Below are positions 3,351 through 49,697 of a DNA stretch of 64,000 nt, one piece after another. Made by a program: the position numbers and the translations under genes. The notes under the pieces were generated by a model. That model was given only the letters and a program-made list of their open reading frames with translations. It searched no databases and was not told the origin of the DNA. How positions within the stretch are numbered: the stretch's first letter is position 1; every line of letters begins with the position of its first letter. The DNA comes from Acanthamoeba sp. SK_2022b (taxonomy: Eukaryota > Discosea > Longamoebia > Acanthamoebidae), in assembly GCA_027943245.1 (NCBI GenBank), contig JANDJZ010000181.1, positions 20,046 through 84,045 on the forward strand. Reading direction: 5' to 3'.

Positions 3351-5142
3351 AGAAAGAGTTGGGGAGCATGCCTGAGCGAGCTTCTCTTCATCAACGTCGG
3401 CCACATCGCCCAACGCAAAGATGTTGGGATGACGCTCGACCTGCAGGTGCTCATTCACCTTGATGTGCCCCTTCTCAGACAGCAGATCGGCGCACTCGGC
3501 CCTCATGAAGTCGGTGTTGGGCACGAAGCCCACGCAGAAGTAGGCCATGTCGGTTTTGACTTTCTCTCCCTTTTACGGAGAACCGCGATGTTAGACACAC
3601 AAGAGATGGGGGGGGTGCGGACTCACCTTGGTGGTGACCAGCGAATCGCCGTCAGAGCCCACCACCTTTTGATCCTTAAGGATGCGAACGTTGGCCGTCG
3701 ATGAGAGGTACCGCTTGATGTTCTTATGAGCCCCTTTGCAACATCGCTCAAGCATTTTCTTGCCCGAGTAAATGAGGGTCAGCTGCTTATCTGCAGCAGA
3801 CAACAAGACTGTCAGCACACTCTTGCGGCCAAGTCGATTGCAATGAGGGAGAGGGCTCGAATGGCAGCGTCTGGTGGCGTACCTGGGCAGTAATGGATGA
3901 TCTCTCCTGCAATCTCGATGCCCACCGGCCCAGCGCCAACGACGGTTATGTGTGTAGCTTTGAGCAGAGCCGGATGATATCTGTGGCGCGAGCGCATTGC
4001 GAGAGATGAGTGTGCGTGCGTGGTGTTAGTGCACGCCAATGAGCGCTGTCGACTGAAAAGCTTGCGAAGGAGGAGCGCATGGCTTACTCTCGGAGTGATG
4101 AGGGATGAAGAGGGTCGACGATGAGCAGTTGGTCGTTGCCCTCAACCGGGATTCGATATCGGGAGCCAGTACAGATCACCAGGTAGTCGTAGGCCAGCGG
4201 CCCGTGGGACTTGAGCTGGAGAGTGTTGCCGTCGGTGTTCAGGCCCACGACTTCATCGACCACGATCGTGCAGTGCTCCAGATACTGAAAGCATGGAGAC
4301 GCGGAGACGTGGAGGTGAGATGACTGCTGATGTGACATTGAGCCGCAGTCATCGAGCCGAAAAAAGGGGGAGCGGTTGAAACGCACGTGCGAGTGCGGCG
4401 CGGAGACTTTGTCGAGGTGGTCGATGTCGCACACGCAGGCGGGAAGCGAGATGTTGCATATGAAGCTGTCTTTGTTGTCCACCAGCGTGACGTCGAACGA
4501 CGACTGCAGCTTCATCGCTACCTTTCGGCCGGCAAAGCCGCCTCCCACCACCACGACCTTCCTCCTCTCCGCGAAGCGGTAGAGCGCGTGCTCTCCCTGG
4601 CATACACACCACGGCCTGGTGAGTGAGATGGAGTCCGGAGAGAAAGACGGGAGGAACAGTACGAGCGCGTGCTTGTCCTCCGCTCCTCCTGCCTCCTTCA
4701 CCGGCACGACCACACCCTCCTCGAGGAGGCGCCGCACTAGCTCGAGAGCTGCGCTGCGATCGCTCGCGCTCGGCCAGTTCTTCATTACCCATTCGACTGC
4801 CTCAGCACCTGTGTGGTTCCCGATGGCGTCAGCCTACTGGCTTGCCCCCCCCCCAACCAGGCGGACCCAAAATAGAAGTGCAAGCAGGGCGGCACCGATG
4901 AAGCAGTCGGCGTGAGAGCGCAGGAAGCCTTCGCGATGGTCTCGCACTGGGAAGCCTGTGCCAGGCCGGCGTACGGCCGCCACCAGCCTCATCCACTCTG
5001 TGAATCCGTCGCCCTCAATTTCAGCCTCGCTTTCCAGTCGTAGCTCTTCCTTGACCACATCAATCTCTTCCTTGGCGGTTTCTATTTCGACTTCTTTGGC
5101 CTCTTCCGTCTCTTCCTTTGCGGTGCCCACCCCGACCTCCAT
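2904..5142 (-). CDS. DEP domain fused to AIFM2/FSP1-like FAD-NAD(P)H oxidoreductase
   Basis: The start ATG at 5142 opens an acidic, Glu/Lys-rich leader, then a DEP domain: FTEWMRLVAAVRR, HADCFIG spliced to AEAVEWVMKNWPSASDRSAA, LVRRLLEEGVVVPV and EHALYRF. DEP domains bind membranes or signalling partners. A class II pyridine-nucleotide oxidoreductase follows directly. It has the FAD-binding Rossmann motif KVVVVGGGFAGRKVA, the ATG-like motif DYLVICTGSRY, the NAD(P)H-binding motif HITVVGAGPVGIEIAGE and a C-terminal FAD motif HPNIFALGDVAD. The order and spacing match the AIFM2/FSP1/NDE family, which moves electrons from NAD(P)H to quinones. A C-terminal KSLVEYKTMKALG precedes the stop at 2904-2906. 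The intron at 3197-3371 appears to be GC-AG and holds a large microsatellite. The DEP fusion is unusual for this family as I know it. Function as a quinone reductase is inferred from family. Confidence 0.85.
3251..3350. repeat. Compound microsatellite (CAGA)n-(CA)n-(GA)n
   Basis: Tandem CAGA units from about 3251 run into roughly 30 CA units up to 3331, then GA units to 3350. All of it lies inside an intron of the oxidoreductase gene. On the transcribed (minus) strand it reads CT, then TG, then TCTG repeats. Copy number from assembled sequence may be inaccurate. Confidence 0.97.
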
Positions 5143-8052: not shown

Positions 8053-9120
8053 TTAGCTGCGGAGCCAGTAGAAGAGGAGGAAGCAGATGCAAAAGGCGAT
8101 GAACGAGCCCAAGATGACCATGTCCTTGTACTTCTTCTTCTTGATCGAGCCCATAATTGAGTTGATTCCCGGCAACGAGCCTGCAGAGCCGGATGACATT
8201 AGATACCAGCGGCACCACCAGCTCTGAAGTGATCAGTACCTCGCATGCCGGCGAGGGTAGCCAGCGTGTTCTGGAGCAGCGACCTTTGGCCAGCGAGCTG
8301 CTCTCGAGCCTCCTGTGCTTGGCTGGTCGCGCGCACCCGGACGCGGGAGGGTAAGGGCCACGAGGCGAGTGCCGAGAAGGGAAGGCCCCGTACCCAATGA
8401 GCTGGTCCGCGATGTGATCGATTCCGTGAATGCTGCCCCGCTCTCGCAGCATGTTCTCCGTTCGTGAGTTCATGCCCGTGTTCTTCTTGTACTCGCTGAT
8501 GGCCACGATGGAAAGCACCATTGCATGACACAAGGCATGAGAAACAGGCCGATTGGCAAGCGCAGGGCAGCGAAGCAAAGAGGACTCCGCACAGCGAAGA
8601 AGTTTGAAACTTACCTGATGTCATCGCGCACAGAGAGCAACAGGTCGGCGTGCTCCCGTGTCTGCATGATGTTTGCCTACACGTGCCAAGTGAAGTTCAA
8701 TCAACACTGCACAGTGCAAACAAGGAGGAAGTAGGGCTTACCCTGGTCTTCTTGTAATCAAGTTGAAAGTCGTGCAGCTTGCCTCGGTGATGCTGCAAAA
8801 TGTGAGGCAAGGCCACGCTGGCGTCGCATCGGCTCATTTTATCGTTGATTTCAGACAGCTGCGCGAGAGAAATCAGCAAGCTGCGGTGAGGCTGGGGGGG
8901 GGGGTTGGCGCTCTACTTTAAGCAGCAACTGATCAATCTCTAGGGCCATCGAGTTAGAGACATCTTCAGACCATGGGCTAGTGGTGAGGCTGTGATCTTC
9001 CTCTCGCAACAGGGTCGAATGCGCGAAATTGGCACCCAGCTTTGAGTAAGATACCAATTTGACATCTAGCATGCTCTCAATCTTGCGGGCGTCCTTCCTC
9101 AGTTCTTCCAGCGATGCCAT
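8053..9120 (-). CDS. GOSR1: Golgi SNAP receptor, Qb-SNARE of the GOS28/GOS1 type
   Basis: GOS28 is a Golgi Qb-SNARE in ER-Golgi and intra-Golgi membrane fusion. The ATG at 9120 starts MASLEELRKDARKIESMLD followed by KLVSYSKLGANF, the characteristic N-terminus. Spliced exons continue with LSEINDKMSRCDASVALPHI, KLHDFQLDYKKTR, ANIMQTREHADLLLSVRDDI and EYKKNTGMNSRTENMLRERG. The SNARE helix is IDHIADQLIGQAQEAREQLA then GQRSLLQNTLATLAGM; the Q of LAGQRS fits the zero-layer glutamine. The protein ends with a basic KKKKYKD, a single membrane anchor (MVILGSFIAFCICFLLFYWL) and RS, as expected for a tail-anchored SNARE. The stop is at 8053-8055. About five short introns are present. The start lies 143 bp from the divergent PARP16-like gene. 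Confidence 0.92.
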
Positions 9121-9263
9121 TGTTCCCTCAACCCAACGCGTGCGTGAAGCGAGTGATGTTGCTGTTCTCCGCCACGTCAGCGGTGTTTTTATATATATTT
9201 CTTTTTCAGTTTCGGGAAACTGAATAAAAAAACAATCACACAGAAAGTTCAACACACCGGTTG
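9121..9263. promoter_or_regulatory. Short shared promoter region between SNARE and PARP16-like genes
   Basis: Only 143 bp separate the two divergent start codons. An A/T-rich core (GTTTTTATATATATTTC, about 9183-9199) could serve as a TATA-like element on either strand. Bidirectional use is an inference. Confidence 0.45.
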
Positions 9264-10755
9264 ATGGATAGGGCAGAGAGCGAAACAAGGCAGGTGCCGA
9301 CTCCAGAAGCTGAGGAGGTGCTGCATAAAAAAGACCTGGAAGTACGTGTCAGCAGTCAGTTGGCTAGCAGGTATGCTGCACCTTCCAAAAAGAACGGTGG
9401 CTGGCGCTAGTCATCTCACCTCTCACGTCACGGCAGCATCTTAGGGTGTGATCTTCTGTTGAGTCTCTTTTTCACAGCACTTAACAGCTACAGACGAGCA
9501 ACAATCTGTCAACCGTTCCCCACCTTCTTCTCGACAGGAGCTTTGCACGCAAAGATCAGGGATTTTGATCAACTTGTACACTACCCCACCCCCACGCCTT
9601 TCATTGATCTTGACACTCACTCTGTGACATGGGATGCAGGTAAATATTCTGCAAACGCTACCTCCCCTGAGAACACTTGCTGCTGACGAAGGTGCCCACA
9701 TCACGGCCTCAACCAGCACTGGGCAACTTTCTTTGTTGGCTGATGTCTCTTTGTCATGTAGAGGCTGTACGCAAGCTGCCGCTCAATTCGTTGCGACTCC
9801 TCGATTGGCTCTTCAGTCCTCCGGCTTTCCGCTTGAAACCGATCGCCGTAGACGAGGTGGCTGTTCCCCCTCTCTCTTCTATCGAACCTCAACCAGAAGT
9901 GATGTTGAGCATGTCAATTGATGTCGCCGCGCAGTTCAATGCCAGAACCTCCTTCCTCTCCGCGACTGCTCTGGCATCCAAATCGGGGTCACTGCCACAA
10001 CACATCTTCGAAGTTGTCTACGGGGAGTCACCTTCGTCCTCCGTCTCAGGAGCAGGTACGCCGTCTCCATACCTTCCTTTCCACGAGTCGGTTGGTTCGC
10101 AAGTGCCAATCCTTGTCACTTGTGCAGCGTCTTTTGCTATAGAAGCCCTGCATCGATATCGGTCTGTCGCCCAGAAGCACGGCACAGTGATAGGGTAGGG
10201 CACCCCCGACCCACGTCCCCTCTTTCTTTACGCCGCGTCCCGTCACTAGTCACATCTGTTGATTGCCACGGCGCGTGTCAGGTACCACGCTTCGTCGCTG
10301 GAGAACTTCCACTCCATATTGTGGAACGGGCTTGACACCAAGTATGCGAAGGAGGGTCTCTTTGGCGAAGGTAAGACCGCAGCTCGACTCTGTCTATCGT
10401 GTGTTTTCCGTTTGCATGGCGCGCAAGGGAAGCTCACGCGATACAAACATCCATCAAGGGATCTACCTTTCGACCGACGCTTCCGTGTGCATGACCTTCT
10501 GGACATCCGCTCCTTCGTGGGAACGGAGCATCATTGGCCCACGAATAGGACTCATTGCCGGGTGTGAGGTGAGTGTCTCTTCCTCTGTGAGTTTCTTCAC
10601 CTAATCACTATGATCTCCCAGGTGGCCAATGATCCCGAGTACGTATCCCACGGCAAGCGAGAGACCAACAGCTCGCAATTGCCGGAGCAGTACCTCCTCT
10701 CCAAGAGTAACGATCACGTCCGAGTACGTTTGAAGGCCGGCCCTGCGCGCGCGCG

Positions 10756-10820
<65 letters not shown>

Positions 10821-11039
10821 CGTCACCGAGACTTTGGTGTTCTTACTTTGCGCATGATGGCTGACCAGGTCAAGTATCTGCTCGTGCTCTCGGAAGCGCC
10901 CAAGCCCAAGGCGCCACCAAGGAAGATTAACAAGAACGCGCTGGTGATCTTCCTCTTCGTGCTCCTTCTCGCCTTCGTGGCCTTCCTACGTTCTCCCACC
11001 TGGAAGCGTCTTCGCAACAAGTGGCTCGCTCACTATTGA
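9264..11039 (+). CDS. PARP16: PARP16-like mono-ADP-ribosyltransferase, tail-anchored
   Basis: PARP16 (ARTD15) is an ER tail-anchored enzyme that adds single ADP-ribose units to proteins and acts in the unfolded-protein response in animals. Exon 1 is about 9264-9345 (MDRAESETRQVPTPEAEE). Exon 2, from about 9445, carries SLFFTALNSYRRATICQPFP, matching the family's alpha-helical N-terminal domain. The catalytic part is spread over several exons: RYHASSLENFHSILWNGLD (NAD-binding His), LFGEG spliced to GIYLSTDASVCMTF (second-position Tyr), and RVKYLLVLSEAPKPKAP (third-position Tyr). This H-Y-Y set is the one seen in mono-ADP-ribosylating members. The C-terminus has one hydrophobic segment, ALVIFLFVLLLAFVAFL, followed by a short basic tail. 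A (GC)n(AC)n microsatellite fills one intron. Exon boundaries in the middle are approximate. Confidence 0.9.
10745..10819. repeat. Microsatellite (GC)n-(AC)n
   Basis: About 9 GC units (10745-10763) run directly into about 27 AC units (to 10819), inside an intron of the PARP16-like gene. The GC half can form Z-DNA or hairpins. Confidence 0.97.
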
Positions 11040-11204
11040 GTTGGCGCTATGCGCGTAGAAGAAAACATGCCCTGTTTTTTTGTATGCCCTTCGTAGTGAC
11101 CTTCAGTGAAAACTGGGGGATCCCACAATGGGGTGCGACAGGCAAGAGGCACACCATCAAGTAGCGCTCTCCTTCAATCATAAGCACAGGCAAAACCGCC
11201 GCCA

Positions 11205-11417
11205 AGGGTTGGGGGGTAGGTAACTTGCTCTCCCTCTGTCTAATATCAAACCCTCCTCCGCAAGGAGTACTGAGGGCCGCTGATATGGGAGAGCTATGAT
11301 CGGAGACTGAAGCCTGTCAGTGCCTACCCGGGGGGTTCAACTCCCGACGGTAACCCTCACCTTTTGCCTCCAACAGGTCTACGCGTGGGCCTCGGCGTTT
11401 CCAGGCAAGTTTTTTTT
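11205..11417 (+). ncRNA. Candidate structured Pol III non-coding RNA, family unknown
   Basis: This gene-free block can fold into nested, perfectly paired helices. P1 is 11205-11210 with 11352-11357. P2 is 11214-11220 with 11323-11329. P3 is 11227-11234 with 11287-11294 (8 bp). P4 is 11243-11248 with 11281-11286, stacked on P3. P5 is 11251-11255 with 11272-11276, and P6 is 11256-11259 with 11264-11267, closed by a GCAA (GNRA) tetraloop. A hairpin at 11333-11345 has the loop TTCAACT, a tRNA T-loop consensus, and the same bases form a perfect B box, GGTTCAACTCC (11334-11344). Eight T residues at 11410-11417 fit a Pol III terminator. A weak A-box-like TAGGTAACTTG is at 11217. It matches no family I can recall (not 7SL, RNase P/MRP, U3, U1, U2, U4, U5 or U6). 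The 5' end is unknown. It could instead be a structured 5' UTR of the ZSWIM7-like gene. Confidence 0.5.
11410..11417 (+). terminator. T8 run, possible Pol III terminator
   Basis: Eight consecutive T residues on the plus strand lie 66 bp after the B box of the candidate RNA. Pol III stops at runs of four or more T residues. Confidence 0.45.
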
Positions 11418-42182: not shown

Positions 42183-42886
42183 AACATTACTGTTTAACTC
42201 CTTTGTTGTCCACCACACCAGAGCCAATGTGTAGCAGCAAATTGGCTTGATTATCAGACTGTATGTCTGAGACAAGCAAAAGAGTTTCCTTAGGATTTAT
42301 ATGCTCACCACACTATTTCTCTATCAACTCTTGTGCACCACCTCTGAAGCTCCTTTTCAGATCAGGACTCTCCATCACTCATATGCTTGTGGTAAGTGTG
42401 GCTGAGTACAAGATTGCACAGGAGGACTGGTACCCTTTCAGGTGATGATGCTTCCTCTGGCATTTTGTCTGCTCACTCTCTCTTGAAGTGTGGAAACTGC
42501 AGCAACAAGCCTCTGCTGTCCTCTTGGCCCAGCCCCAAGAGGGGTCCAGGCAGCAGCAAGTATTGCTCCTGGAGGTTAACAAACTCAACAATTTGAACCA
42601 AGGGCCATCAATCTGATTTTGACTATGCTGATAGAGGTCAATTTCCAATTTAAACTTTGTTCTATTGGGGATGTTCATGAGTACAAAACATCACAAAAAA
42701 TTGGAGAGCTTTTAGCTTTGTGCCCAAGAGATGCAACCTGTTTCTTGGTGGTGCGAAAAACTTGGAGTTTTGGTGGTGAGGAAACAAGAAAGAATATAGT
42801 GTTTTCAGTGCTTTTTCGTTTTGGTGTCTCTCAGAGTGTAACAGAGAAGGAGAGCGAGGCAGGTCTGCCTTTTGTCTCGAACAACC
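42183..42886. other. AT-richer intergenic island, right of 5S
   Basis: About 700 bp between the 5S gene and the repair protein. It has weak open frames on both strands, such as a 99-codon Ser/Cys-rich minus-strand frame at 42379-42678, without recognisable homology. It probably holds the promoter of the downstream gene. The base composition is unlike the coding regions on either side. Confidence 0.45.
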
Positions 42887-45800
42887 ATGGAAGCTGGGCG
42901 GAGCAAGGTGCGACTACAGCTTGTTCCCAACACGGGACAAAAGAGCCGGGGTCTCCCTGTCGTTGTGGAGGGACCGACCTATGCAGCCATTGCCCAGGCT
43001 GCCCGCAACAAGCTACTCGCCCGCCGCGCTACCTCCTCACACAAAAACAGGCGCAGCCACGCCAACAAGAAGGGCAGTGTCGGAGGCAGCAGCGGCACTA
43101 TCCGCCTCTTTCTCCAGGACGGGCGCGAGCTACAACCCCTCGGTGACGACGACAACCAAGACGTGCTGCCACTAAAACAAGACACCGTTGTAGTCGTCTC
43201 CTCGGGCGAGGCCTATGTCTCCAGCGCTGGTAGACTCTTGGAGGATACTACGCCGACACCTCGTCGTGCCGACACTGCTGTCGAAGGTGGCAAAGCGGAG
43301 GCAGCCACAACCTCAACGTCGCCTTTAGGCGCCAACACCGGCCTAACTCTTGGCCAGCTCGTAACTTCCCTCCTGGAGCAGTTACCATCGTTGCCGGTCG
43401 AAGTCGTGGCAGACGACTACGCTACCCTCAAGGAGGAGGAGGAGGAGGAGGAGGAAGACGTCGTTAACAACGATGGAAGGGGAACAGGTGGCATCAACGA
43501 TAACGAAGGCTTCGGTCTTGGGCAGCTAGGAAGAGAAAACCTGAACGAAGCAGGAGAGGCGAACGCCGCAGCACCACGCGCCACCGCTGCTGTTGGAGCC
43601 ACGGCGGCAGCCTCGCCGCATTGCAAGAAGGCTCCGGTGATGACAGCGTTTGACTTGGAGGGACCGTTTCCGGTGATGGAGGGCAACGTGCTGCCGCTGC
43701 TTCGGGAGGCCATCAAGGATTGCGACGACTTTGTGGTGGCCAACTGCGGCGACTACCTCGCATTCGATTACCGGCGAGTAACGCGGGACACCTTCCCCGA
43801 CCCGGTGCACGTGCCCAAGAAGAATGCACGCCTTCGATGGCTGATGGCAGCACGCCGTGAATGCCGTGGCCTATTGGTGTCGCAAGCCACAGGCTGCGTG
43901 GTCGCCCGCCGGTTCCACAAGTTCTTCAACGTCGATGAGCGGCCCGAGTCCGCAGCCGCTCTCGTCCCGCTTACGGACTCGGTCGTGCTCACGGAGAAGA
44001 TTGATGGCTGTCTGGTCTCCCCCTTGGTGCTCGACCACCAACACTCAGAAGTACGAGGCGTACGGTGGGTGACCAAGGTTCAGCCGTCCAAGCAGATCGA
44101 AGAGTTTGTGGCTGCAGCTTGTACCAACATCGATGGCGCCGACTACGGGGGACTTGCGGTGGAGTGGGCGACCCAGGGCCTCACGCCGCTCTTCGAGTGG
44201 TGCGATCGCTCGCTCGGGCTCATCGAACACCATGCCCAGTCGCTTGTCCTTCTTGCCGCGCGCCACAACGTGACCGGCCGATACCTCGAGCGAGCGGCGC
44301 TGGAATCGACTGCCGCCAGGTTTCGCGTGCCCGTGGCCGCCCGCGTGCCGCTTGATCTACAGGTGACGCCCACCACGGCCAGTCTCAAGGCACACGTAGA
44401 CTCCTGGGCTCCCGGTGCCGAGGGCCTCGTGATGTTCCTCCCAGAATCCGGCCTCATGTACAAGCTCAAGAGTCACTGGTATCGCACGCTTCACGCCAAC
44501 AGCGGCATCACCAACCTGGCCAAAGTGCTGGCCGAGCGGCCCTCGCTCGTTGGTGTGCCGCCGGCCATGGTCTGGAGCGCCGTCGTCTCGGGTCGTGTGG
44601 ACGATCTCCTCCCGCTACTGCGGGCAGCCGGCAACAACGGCGACGCCGACCTGCTATCAGGCTTCGTCACAGCCCACCACGCCGGCCAAACCCGCCTCCT
44701 CAAGCGACTCCAGGCCTGGGGCGTCCGCGTGAGGCAGCTGATTCGCGGCCGCGTCGAAGCGACTCCTACGCACGAGATCAGCGCCGCCGGCATTGCCGCT
44801 CCGTCGCACTGTTGGAACGACAAGGTGGAGGATCTCGTGCTGCAGCAGCTAGCTCTGAAGCTGGCAAGCTCGCTCGGCGCCATCCTCGCGCAGCACTGTA
44901 ACAAGCGTGCGCTCCAATGCTTCGTCAAGCCGGAATCCGTCGACCGGCAGGAAAAGGTCATCGACGAAATGGTGCGGCGCCTGGCCGCCCGTGGCAGGTG
45001 GCGACAGCTGGAGGCCCTCCTCGGGCTCAGCTGGCAGCGGTACTTCGAGGTGGGCAACCCAGCGCTGCTCTTCGACGAGGCATGCGCGGAGGATGGTGAG
45101 GACACCGCCCAGACGCCAGTCGGTAACGACAGCAACCATCATCAGGAGACTTCTACCTCCATCGAGGAGACCGTTCCGCAGCTTCAGGTTTTCTGCGACT
45201 TGGATGATGTGCTGGCCGACTTTACCGCCGGGATTCGGCGGATCGGCAGGACCACCCACCAAGCTGCAGACGGCAGCCCGCAGATGTGGGCCCTGATCCG
45301 GAAGCACAAGACCTTCTGGTCTGGGCTCGACAAGACGGAGGGCGCGGACGCTCTGTGGGACTACCTCCGCTCGCAGCCCCACGACTCGGCCTTTCCCAAG
45401 ATCCTCACGGGTGTGCCGGAGGGCAAGATGGGCCTCGTGGCGCGGGAACAAAAGCTGGCTTGGTGCCGCCGACACCTCCAGACATCAGGCGATGGCCGCG
45501 GCGAGCCGGTCGAAGTGATCACCTGCCAGAGCAGCAAGAAGTACGAGTACAGCCGTTTCGGCCATGTGCTCATCGACGACCGCGAGACCATGCGCACCGA
45601 CTGGGAACGGATGGGCGGTGCCTTCGTGCTGCACACCGATACGGTCTCCACATTGGCGCAGCTTCAGACGCTGCTGCCGGAGCTCAGTCAACAGCTCGAT
45701 GCTGTACGAGAGCTGATAGCGCCTGCTGCACACCTGCCACTCGTCGACGCCTTTAGCGTGCCGGAGGCGGCCATTAGTCTCGTCGAGGGCGAGCGCGGGC

Positions 45801-48800
45801 TGGCCGAGTTCGCAGAGGCGATGGCGAGCGCGCGCGTTGTCGGACTAGATGTCGAATGGACGCCCGACACTCCCGGCGGGCCCCAGAACAGGGCTGCCCT
45901 GCTGCAAGTGGCCGTGTCAGAGGACCGCGTATTCCTCGTGGACCTCTTGTGTCTCTGTCGCGAAGCTGAGCAGACCATCACGCAGCTGCTCGAGGCCGCA
46001 TCAGTGCTAAAGCTTGGCTTTGGCCTCCAAGAGGACTTGCACAGGCTCGGCCTGGAGTGCGCCGCCGTCCGATCGACGCTCGACCTGGCACAGGCGGTTT
46101 CCAAGCTCGTGCCAGGCTTCCCTGCCACGCCGCCACTCAGCCGTGTGGTGGAGCAGCTGCTGGGCGTGAGGCTACAGAAGAGCAAGCTCCTGCAGGCCTT
46201 CGACTGGTCTCTTCGCCCGCTGCCAGTCACTCATCGTCAATACGCGGCTTCCGACGCCGCGTGTCTGCTGCGCCTACACGCAACCATCACTCGACGACCA
46301 GCTCTTCGCGCCCTTGTTAGCGCTGCCTTCACCGTCGATCTCGACCCGCCCTCCAAGCGACAGCGCCAGCAGTACTGCCAGCCAGCCGCCAATACGGGCG
46401 CATCCAGAGTCTCTAAGCAGCGCGTCACGCTTCAGTACTCGGCCGTTTTCCTTGATCCGGACTCGCGCGCGCCTGCTTGCTGCGTTCCCCGCGCAGCTGC
46501 CTACTGTTCACGCCGATCACGTGACGTTGGCCTACGCCCCATCGATGGACGACATCCGGGGCTTGTCAGTGGGCGAGGAGGCCTCCGTGCGCGTGCTGGG
46601 CCATGCCGTCGATGGCAACGCGCAGGCTGTCGCTGTGGAGCTCACCGAAACTGCTGCCACTGGCCCCGTGCCTGCCGCCAAGATCCTCCACATCACCATC
46701 GCCACTCGGCCAGGCGTGCCCATGAGCTACGCCAACGAGCTACTCGCTCGCGGCTTCGTTCCGGTGGCTGCGCCGCAGGCTGCACTTGAACTATCTGGTC
46801 AGGTCGGCCTCGTGGTGGCCAACGAGTTCGTGATGGCGGAGCTACCGCCCAAGATCCTGAGCGAGATGCAAGAGTTCGCAACCAACGGACTGCCGGGCCA
46901 GTGCCTCGAGCTCGGCAAGAAGCAACCCCTCACGGCGATGGAGCGACAGGCCGTCCACAGGTTCGCCGAGATCCACGGCCTGGAAAGCGAGAGCGTTGGG
47001 CGCAAGCACCAACGAGTGGTGACGCTCCGCATCCCGCATCGGCCGATGCGCAACCGAGACGACCAGCAGGTGGGCGTTGTACACGACCTCCGAATCATGA
47101 AATCAGGCAACGAGGACGAGAACCGGCGACTCATGCGACAGAACGCGAGGTCGCGAACGAAGGCCGGCGAGGCGCCGCACATCATTCGTGTTACGGACGC
47201 CGCATCTCTGCAGTCCCTCCAGCTGGTCTTCCAGAGCCTCGAGCGCGCCGGCGGCGGCGGCGGCAGCACATCGGGGCATCCTGAGTCCGTGCATGGACGT
47301 CTGCGTGCGAACGGCGCCGTGCAGTTGTACCCGTCCTTCCACTTGCTTGCGGCCGATAACCTAAGATCAGGCTGGCATGAGCTGGCCCTTGACCTACTCT
47401 CGGGTGATCGTGATCCCGACGCCAATCCAGTCGTCGTCATCATGCGCGGCCTGCCCGGTTCTGGCAAGAGTTCGCTCGTGCGTGCTCTCATCGGATCTCG
47501 CAACGAGGAGGAGCACGGTGCGACGCAGGCATCCGACAAGCACCAAGAACGCGAACGCGACGATGATGACATCATTGACTTGGGAACCGACGGCGGCGTC
47601 GACAAAGCAACGTGGAGGGTGCCGGTATGTAGCGCAGACGAGTTCTGGGAGCGAGGCGCCGGCAGGAGCAGACGGGAGCTCAAGCGCATGCAAGAAGATG
47701 GCCTGAGCGCCGAAGACATCTACGAGCACTGTTGGGACGAGCGGCGACTGGGCGAAGCGCACGACTACTGCTTCGCACGCTTCCGAGAGGCCCTGGACGC
47801 CGGCCGCCGGCTGGTGGTCGTCGATAACGTTAATGCTTTGCTGCGTGACTACGCCGGATACGTGGGCCACGCGACCGCTGCAGGCTACGCCGTGCTCAAG
47901 CTGGAAATCGTTTGCAGCAGCGATCACGAGCTGGCGGCCTTCCACCGGCGCGGTCGGCATCGCGTGCCGATGGCCGCTATGGCAGCCATCTGGCGCCGCT
48001 GGGAGGTCGATCCCGAGGCCATTCTCCTGTCGCCTTTCCTCGGCACTGACGCTGACGGCGACGACGACGACGAGGAAGGCGCGATGGAGGCCGGGCAGTC
48101 CCTGCTTCAGTGGCTGAGTCAGAATAAGCTGTTCGGGGCTCGGAGCAAGCACCGCAGGCCCAGCCACATGATGGCCGAGCTCGAGGACCGGCCGTCCAAG
48201 TTCGTCTTCGTGCCGCCGGAGCGTCACGAGGAGTTCCTGCGACGCTACGCTGCCGACTCCAGCCCCAAGTTCCTCATAGAGCACTTCTCCACGCCCGTGT
48301 GCCCGTTGCTCTTTGACGTTGACTATGTCGCCGAACGCGAGATGACCCCCGAAGTCCAGCGCGACATCATCCACTCCCTGCAGCGCACCCTGCGGGCGTG
48401 CTACCCCGACCTCGGCCCGACCCGCGACGCTGCCATCTTTGGCGGCGTGGTTGTCACAGGCGGCTTGTGCTACCAGCACTGCGGGCTCATCAAATCGGGC
48501 CGCCACGTCCTCTTCCCCGGGGTGCTGGTCACCCTCGAGCAGGCCATCTGCATTGCTGATGCGGCAGCGGCACGCCTGGAGGCCGAGCAGGTGGGCCGAG
48601 GCGACCCCCGGCAGCCGGCGTGGGACCAGATGCTCGACACGGCCATCTACCGTGGCGCCGAACCGGGCGTGCGCATGTTTGGCAGTCGCAAGACGGTTCG
48701 TAACGTCGCCAGTGGCCAGTGGGTCGACGCCGGCATCGGCGTGCACACGCTGCGAGCTGTCTTTGACGTCAGAGGAGAGCTCGACGAGCGCGCCTTCGCT

Positions 48801-49697
48801 TCCCTTCTTCAGGATCCGGTGGCGCTGCTGCAGGTCACCACGCTCCGATCGTGGGCGGCGGCGCCTACGCCTGGGTTCTGTGCGCCGGCCGGCGCTGGCC
48901 TCTCGACCGGGTTAGCCCAGCAGCCGCCAACGGAGCAGCGCGAAGCCTCGGTCTCCATGACGGCCGTTGATTTGGACGATATCGAGCTGAGGCCGGCCAG
49001 GGACGACCTGGTGGAGCACGTGATCGAGCGGTACCTCCCGCGCAAGCTGGCCAACTACCTGGGCCTCCCGCTGAAGGACGTCAACGACGAAACGCGCATA
49101 GAGCTGTCCCGCGAGCACGGCCCCAGCGAGGGCAAGATCCGCGGGATGTGGGAGCAGTTCGGCAAGAGCGGAATCATCGACCTGCGGGTCGACCTGCAGC
49201 CGCGCCGCAAGCAGGGCCGCACGAGCCACTACGGCGACGACGAGTTCGCCAACTGGCAGGTGCAGTTCGGGGCCTCGCAGGTCTGCAAGGCGTCGTCGCG
49301 CGCCCGACCCGGCCAGACCGACGTCGGCGCCTTTGCTGGCGTGTTCATGCGCACGGGGATATCCTTCCGCGTCGGAGACCTGAGGAAGGCGATGGCGCTA
49401 AGCTTCGAGCAGAGCAAGTATGTCTGCCTGGACATCGTGGGCCTGTCGCCGCCGGTGGTCGCGCCTTCTCGCAGCCTTCCCAGCGCTGACCAGTTAACGG
49501 CCTCGAGTTCTGAGGATGAGGACAAAGATGATGGAGACGACGAGGAAGAGGAACACGACGAGGGGAGTGACGAAGAAAAGGAAGACGAGGAAGACGCGAA
49601 CACGAAACGGAGGACACGGATCTACGCACGTGGCAAAAAGGAGAAGCACACACGCAAGAACAAACGCTTGGCCAAGCACCAGCGTGGCTTTGTGTAG
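42887..49697 (+). CDS. Giant multidomain nucleic-acid repair protein (ligase-phosphatase-exonuclease-2H-R3H-kinase-primase), one frame slip
   Basis: An intron-free reading frame of about 2270 codons. ATG 42887 gives MEAGRSKVRLQLVPNTGQ. Domains in order: a possible ubiquitin-like N-terminal domain (about 1-110); an acidic/Ala linker; an RNA-ligase nucleotidyltransferase with CRGLLV, the AMP-lysine motif EKIDGCLVSP (Lys about 371), LFEWCD, EGLVMFLPES and YKLKSHWY; a HAD phosphatase (FCDLDDVLADF about 770, IDDRETMRTDW); an RNase D-type 3'-5' exonuclease (VVGLDVEWTPD, YAASDAACLLRL); a 2H phosphodiesterase with HVTLAYAP and HITIATRP; an R3H domain (LTAMERQAVHRFAEIHGLES); a P-loop kinase (MRGLPGSGKSSLVRAL, VVVDNVNALLRDY); an archaeo-eukaryotic primase-like domain (PLLFDVDYV, SGRHVLFPG, RMFGSRKT); and an acidic/basic tail. 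The frame changes in a CG run at 46464-46472, although domain similarity continues across it, so the span is 6811 nt rather than a multiple of three. Likely role: healing and sealing broken RNA or DNA ends. Confidence 0.85.
46464..46472 (+). other. Frame slip in a CGCGCGCGC run inside the repair gene
   Basis: Upstream the frame reads LQYSAVFLDPDSRA, then runs into unrelated sequence. The next frame takes over as RLLAAFPAQLPTVHADHVTL. The join lies in a CG dinucleotide run and needs one base fewer or two bases more. No GT-AG intron can bridge it. Slippage during evolution, recoding, or a sequencing error are the choices. Confidence 0.8.

Follow-up and report, generated by a model that had tools for sequence, protein, structure and literature searches.

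What task could call for a ligase, a phosphatase, an exonuclease, a phosphoesterase, a kinase and a primase-polymerase on one polypeptide? The question is raised by a gene on the forward strand at positions 42887–49697 of a 64,000-nucleotide stretch from Acanthamoeba sp. SK_2022b (contig JANDJZ010000181.1, positions 20,046 to 84,045), hereafter the window. Analysis by sequence and structure shows that the product comprises nine modules, six of which are enzymes with intact active-site residues, and that the arrangement is kept in distant eukaryotes. From these modules we predict, with a probability of roughly three in four, a single-chain machine that processes and rejoins RNA ends in an Acanthamoeba-like host.

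Gene structure and the frame break

The gene begins with an ATG at 42887 and ends with a stop codon at 49695–49697 of the forward strand, the boundaries given by an initial annotation of this locus. That annotation had also described one 2270-codon reading frame, which has to be corrected: the length of 6811 nt is not divisible by three, and the listing of open reading frames (ORFs) contains two overlapping frames, 42872–46789 (half 1) and 46314–49697 (half 2). The content of G and C at each codon phase, calculated in 300-base steps, fits coding in the first frame to approximately 46.4 kb and in the second frame straight after, with no gap. The change of phase coincides with a (CG)4 run (46464–46471, forward strand), between the peptide segments LDPDSRA and RLLAAFP, and the coding signature continues across the whole gene. 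No intron was seen in the gene; one at the break was ruled out, as the coding phases abut around 46464–46471 and leave no space for it. In the alignment of homologues the N-terminal domain shows one inserted stretch.

The gene is one unit that encodes one polypeptide, with a single frame break in this assembly, because 13 homologues with all nine modules run through that point. A chance or stitched ORF was likewise ruled out, by strong profile E-values and by the recurrence of the same nine modules in 13 other chains.

Module content and active sites

Module hidden Markov models (HMMs) were scored on 26 sequences, the two window halves included. The window row is among the training rows of its own module HMMs, so that its E-values with these HMMs are circular and were given no weight. 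Active-site counts cover the alignment rows that are not gapped at the column concerned, P0023 excluded, and the role of each residue is presumed from the families. All modules lie on the forward strand.

Half 1 starts with an N-terminal domain of uncharacterised fold (42902–43210), delimited by its own HMM, with the window in the training rows, and present in 17 members. It is followed by a T4 Rnl1-type RNA ligase nucleotidyltransferase (43655–44491; PF09511, 1.1e-20; phrog_562, 4.4e-30), which scores 74.9 bits in the Pfam search of the window protein against a cut-off of 28.3. The KIDG motif occupies residues 376–379 of half 1, and K376, D378, G379, E442, E517, K531 and K533 are each conserved in 20/20 aligned members. 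A profile score above the cut-off, together with the nucleotidyltransferase motifs, places it in the T4 RNA ligase 1 family (PF09511). The HAD phosphatase (45185–45634; phrog_2643, 1.4e-22) contains the motifs DLDDVLADF, LTG and LIDDR, with D776 present in 17/17 and D778, K861, D902 and D903 each in 18/18 aligned members; the HAD region of the homologues matches NT5C, under the NT5C cut-off. Half 1 also carries a DEDDy 3'-5' exonuclease of the WRN/RNase D superfamily (45782–46294; PF01612, 2.4e-15), the best solved relatives of which are Werner exonucleases (5.1e-13). Here D993 is conserved in 17/17 aligned members, E995, Y1124 and D1128 in 16/17, and D1055 in 15/16.

The 2H phosphoesterase (46458–46751) has no Pfam match in the window protein and was recognised by its HxT motifs, HVTL and HITI; H40, T42, H97 and T99 are each present in 19/20 aligned members. 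The homologue P0009 matches tRNA_lig_CPD (1.7e-4, 21.6 bits, slightly below the 23-bit cut-off), and an ORF of the viral contig L106 matches both the family's 2H HMM (8.9e-20) and tRNA_lig_CPD, the latter above the cut-off, which supports the assignment. An R3H nucleic-acid-binding domain (46842–47036; PF01424, 6.4e-7) precedes a P-loop domain of the 5'-OH polynucleotide kinase type (47430–48014; PF13671 (AAA_33), 2.8e-6), with G353, K356 and S357 conserved in 20/20 and D413, D475 and R517 in 21/21 aligned members. The P-loop kinase fold and the Walker A, SAD and R..H residues point to a Pnkp-type polynucleotide 5'-kinase, a predicted activity. Next lies an archaeo-eukaryotic primase (AEP) domain (48189–48767; PF23162, 3.9e-8), in which D639, H702, D746 and K764 are conserved in 18/18 and D641 and R763 in 17/18 aligned members; the AEP fold with DxD, SxH-like and third acidic motifs identifies it as a primase-polymerase of the type of C962R from African swine fever virus (ASFV). 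In an AlphaFold2 model of half 2 both the AEP and the kinase were matched again at the structure level, the kinase to DNA-repair polynucleotide kinase (PNK) among others and the AEP to a viral primase-polymerase.

The seven modules named by the initial annotation were recovered in the order that it gave, six of them with profile support and the 2H module through motifs and homologues instead. Its proposed check, that profile searches should support the ligase, the kinase and the primase, came out in favour of all three (PF09511, PF13671 and PF23162), and the failure that it had named as refuting did not occur. It overlooked two modules, the N-terminal domain and a conserved module termed X, which bring the total to nine.

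Module X (49005–49433) is uncharacterised and contains an invariant RxDxQ motif (R929, D931 and Q933 of half 2). In the form LRxD(L/V)QP the motif is present in 18/18 X domains, on the strand after X's own helical insertion, and outside X the pattern R.D.Q occurs just once in the 26 sequences (36,512 residues). Shuffling of X produced R.D.Q in 1022/20000 trials, so that the motif by itself is weak evidence. The 18 domains share the RxDxQ of the effector family of the Coprinopsis cinerea nematotoxin CCTX2 (PDB entry 9s11). In the published description of this toxin, the conserved residues are R685, D687 and Q689, which come directly after a two-helix insertion (656–683) and lie exposed on the central sheet; toxicity drops by two orders of magnitude with D687A or with Q689A, and R685A alone has a weak effect (PMC13324453). 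A Foldseek search of the PDB with X placed 9s11 at rank 3 (E 0.70), with nothing reaching E 0.001. An X profile (six rows) gave no match at E 10 or better among PDB sequences, and a search of BFVD with X gave nothing at E 0.001 or better. Model position 8 corresponds to CCTX2 621, hence X positions 71, 73 and 75 come within one residue of 685, 687 and 689, by arithmetic on the reported range and not by residue alignment.

Homology of X to the CCTX2 effector is likely, because the invariance of the motif, its position and the putative fold match combine. The settings differ: in the toxin the effector domain is joined to four lectin domains (PMC13324453). The authors state that, to their knowledge, the motif is undescribed in other proteins, and they call the effector function unknown (PMC13324453); on their own statement, the link appears new. 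If right, it would provide a concrete hypothesis, with RNA as the target, for this toxin domain.

After X the chain ends in a low-complexity tail, acidic and then basic (49434–49694), seen in the sequence and shared with P0006. The acidic run is followed by KKEKHTRKNKR, and the tail is a possible signal for the nucleus or nucleolus.

The family, known systems and the host genome

Three protein searches covered approximately 5.8 billion sequences, with approximately 8000 candidates scored in each; one listing comprised the best 120 of 363 matches. Among the matches listed, at least 13 proteins of 1602–2487 aa (P0003, P0007, P0011–P0018 and P0020–P0022) possess all nine modules in the order N-terminal domain (N), ligase (LIG), X, HAD, exonuclease (EXO), 2H, R3H, kinase (KIN) and AEP, and 11/13 were absent from HMM building. 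P0001, P0004 and P0019 carry parts of the same order. The window protein has X at its C-terminus, likewise P0006 (49% identity over 59% of half 2). One named organism is represented among the 13, the green alga Cymbomonas tetramitiformis; the remaining nine-module homologues were drawn from the MMETSP and EukProt collections and from metagenomes. X, EXO and AEP are absent together from two chains, P0002 (LIG-HAD-2H-R3H-KIN) and P0009 (N-LIG-2H-R3H-KIN), a pattern that fits a putative separable set for resection and refilling. The same three modules are missing from P0005 (N-terminal domain and ligase only, from the haptophyte Pavlova sp. CCMP459, taxon 298111), P0023 and P0024, but these are short and probably fragments. 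A co-inheritance measure (identity correlation) gave rho of 0.73–0.92 over 91 pairs, driven by a cluster of similar rows, with 0.00–0.92 over 15 divergent pairs, and carries no weight here. A 56-row ligase tree, which is unrooted and includes some long rows, separates the family (21 rows) by a single branch (support 98/92) from 35 other T4-type ligases of 384–682 aa, taken from at least 105 listed shorter ligases.

RNA repair by single-chain proteins, the chemistry of healing and sealing, and T4-type ligases all have precedents, and the window protein can be set beside several known systems. T4 RNA ligase 1 and Pnkp jointly heal and seal RNA. The ligase family (PF09511) and the kinase fold are common to this pair and the window protein, whereas the T4 enzymes are two separate proteins that are not known to have exonuclease, 2H, R3H, AEP or X. 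Closer in layout are the 'Swiss Army Knife' RNA repair proteins (Pfam HAD_SAK_1), represented by P0010, which was retrieved by half 2 (1.2e-23) and matches the R3H HMM (2.1e-8; its kinase and 2H HMM matches are circular, as P0010 is a training row). Like P0010, the window protein unites kinase, 2H, HAD and R3H in a single chain, and kinase, 2H and R3H together are among the features that mark such proteins. However, P0010 has MJ1316, an AKAP7-type 2H and HAD_SAK_1 (the last slightly below the cut-off) and no matches to T4-type ligase, DEDDy exonuclease, AEP or X, and the window halves show no HAD_SAK_1 (E 1) or MJ1316 match. The fungal and plant tRNA ligase Trl1 also joins ligase, kinase and cyclic phosphodiesterase (CPD) in one chain. 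Its order, ligase-kinase-CPD, differs from that of the window protein (ligase, then 2H, R3H, kinase, AEP and X), and Trl1 has fewer modules; it is not known to have an exonuclease, HAD or AEP module. The ASFV PrimPol C962R carries a helicase, whereas the AEP of the window protein sits in a predicted RNA-repair chain. Bacterial LigD combines an AEP polymerase, a phosphoesterase and a ligase in one end-joining chain, as does the window protein, but its ligase is a DNA ligase acting at DNA breaks and its phosphoesterase is unrelated to that of the window protein. By layout, the window protein could be regarded as an RNA counterpart of LigD.

The initial annotation knew of no described system with this full order. 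The accessible parts of the RNA repair literature searched name no nine-module chain, and an earlier drawing of the architecture may exist. The novelty is weaker than it implied, given the known multi-domain RNA-repair chains of eukaryotes and HAD_SAK_1 in Pfam. Burroughs and Aravind reportedly surveyed RNA repair systems and RNA-acting prim-pol domains in 2016.

Viral contigs scanned with A1 yielded 263 relatives, of which the best 80 of 263 were taken further. These 80 loci and L089, a contig of a Phycisphaerales metagenome-assembled genome (JACVCK010000203.1), contain 81 ORFs with the ligase pattern (295–511 aa); none of their 6059 ORFs was matched by the HMMs for X, AEP or 2H. A scan with A5 yielded 30 viral loci, each with a kinase-HMM ORF and without matches to the N-terminal, X, HAD, EXO, R3H and AEP HMMs. 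Phage records gave no match in a tblastn search with half 2 (half 1 was not searched there).

Some of these loci merit description in their own right. L104, L116 and L119 carry distinct T4-type ligase and PNK-type kinase ORFs a few kb apart, an unfused form of two window modules. In L106 (IMGVR_UViG_3300037137_001341), the ORF at 8489–10300 joins a poly(A) polymerase/CCA-adding head (PF01743, 1.9e-15) to a 2H/tRNA_lig_CPD domain, and it is overlapped by an AAA_33 kinase ORF (10182–11228); together they resemble a compact set for tRNA repair. L107 encodes a histidine phosphatase fused to a P-loop kinase (9263–10588; PF00300 and PF13671), either PFKFB-like or an end-healing pair. L089, a match from the prokaryotic genomes, contains, at approximately 3480–4129, a ligase-family fragment that looks eukaryotic and has an apparent intron; as a prokaryotic relative it was rejected, since by eye the contig looks chimeric, with bacterial genes joined to the eukaryotic-looking fragment.

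The host genome, scanned as 45 Mb in 1129 contigs (the window being part of contig C349), contains each half of the gene once. One of its profilins differs at 5 of 125 positions from profilin IA of Acanthamoeba (PDB entry 1prq), which makes an Acanthamoeba species the very probable host. Four of ten window ORFs searched matched Pfam. Downstream of the gene, two pieces match Nrap and one is exostosin/RXYLT1-like; an upstream ORF has a YoqO match below the cut-off. The host is rich in RNA ligase-like genes: besides the gene described here, four or more T4 Rnl1-type ligase genes are present (contigs C491, C578, C117 and C796), and PF09414, another RNA ligase family, matches at eight places on six contigs (C173, C1057, C770, C539, C704 and C298), the window not among them. 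The stretches around the four T4-type genes, two of which reach contig ends, hold ligase pieces only, spread over several ORFs and apparently split by introns. An additional PF09511 match, on contig C94, is below the cut-off. The genome also encodes RtcB and Tpt1 homologues. PPL4 had no matches in the protein's own genome, and because the control matched nowhere either, this search is uninformative.

Proposed function and alternatives

If the chain is an RNA end-processing and rejoining machine, its substrate would be an RNA whose breakage has left a 2',3'-cyclic phosphate and a 5'-OH, held by R3H and possibly also by the N-terminal domain and X. Opening of the cyclic phosphate would fall to the 2H module; the HAD module would strip the remaining phosphate and the kinase would phosphorylate the 5'-OH, while the DEDDy exonuclease would trim damaged 3' nucleotides, the AEP polymerase would refill them and the ligase would seal the ends via an enzyme-AMP intermediate. 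X may act on or bind RNA ends, a proposal made because it resembles the CCTX2 effector. The suggestion in the initial annotation that the chain trims, opens cyclic phosphates, removes or adds phosphates, extends and seals is supported in principle by homologues with the same modules and by near-invariant active sites; the nine modules and the frame break are what it has to accommodate. A role against ribotoxins or viruses, which the annotation also raised, is a hypothesis.

Several observations weigh against this function. The allele could be dead, given the frame break in this assembly. Overall, the model of half 2 is of middling quality (predicted local distance difference test, 65.9; predicted template modelling score, 0.38). 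The AEP is on average the least conserved module, with 24–30% identity to the window across the 13 homologues; Pfam PF23162 matched 3/18 rows and PPL4 4/18, and two of the 18 rows (the window X piece and P0001) are without AEP. The search profile held two full-length members, which favours full-length matches. Finally, relatives among WRN-type exonucleases, PNK and PrimPol also act on DNA.

A decaying or dead copy in this strain, with a real frame break, would accord with a break that parts the two halves of the sole copy in the assembly; it is improbable in view of the long open stretches on either side, the intact active-site residues and the strong coding signature, and dinucleotide runs are often sites of indels. 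That the break is a genuine programmed frameshift yielding a short and a long product is the most far-fetched of the readings, for although it lies at a module boundary, between EXO and 2H, the 13 nine-module homologues are continuous there; no other mark of programming was looked for. Origin of the gene in a giant virus, with insertion into the amoeba genome, would be compatible with a repair function and would suit both the ASFV-type AEP and the lack of introns over 6.8 kb, the four other ligase genes being apparently in short exons. We consider it unlikely: host genes lie downstream, the viral ligase ORFs (from the best 80 of 263 stretches) are short and without X, AEP or 2H matches, and viral contig scans with P0007, the X-led alignment A4 and P0022 confirmed no relative, within the limit that pattern scans can miss divergent ones.

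Two further readings concern the substrate or the role. The protein might chiefly be the host's ligase for tRNA splicing or unconventional mRNA splicing, a Trl1-like housekeeping enzyme and not one for damage repair; its ligase, 2H and kinase are the activities of Trl1, and the genome has a homologue of Tpt1, which removes the 2'-phosphate left by Trl1. The presence of RtcB, an alternative splicing ligase, and a module order and content unlike those of Trl1 make this, too, an unlikely account. Repair or processing of DNA instead of RNA would be in keeping with the Werner-like exonuclease, the DNA-repair PNK among the kinase matches and the match of the AEP to a viral primase-polymerase, but we judge it very improbable, as the ligase is of the T4 RNA ligase 1 type, 2H and R3H are associated with RNA, and no DNA ligase family is among the Pfam matches of the window protein.

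The RNA end-processing machine remains our preferred reading, and a tentative, distinctly less probable extension of it can be drawn. The protein might be a conserved eukaryotic RNA excision-resynthesis enzyme that trims, refills by templated AEP synthesis and religates within a single chain, with X a homologue of the CCTX2 effector; the toxin would then attack RNA, and X would be a version of a ribotoxin that has been domesticated or acts in opposition.

Healing-and-sealing systems described so far are not known to refill lost nucleotides. If the proposed function is true, one enzyme for every chemical step of mending broken RNA, refilling included, would be common to an amoeba, a green alga and further protists, and the protein would be a ready construct for testing RNA excision-resynthesis repair.

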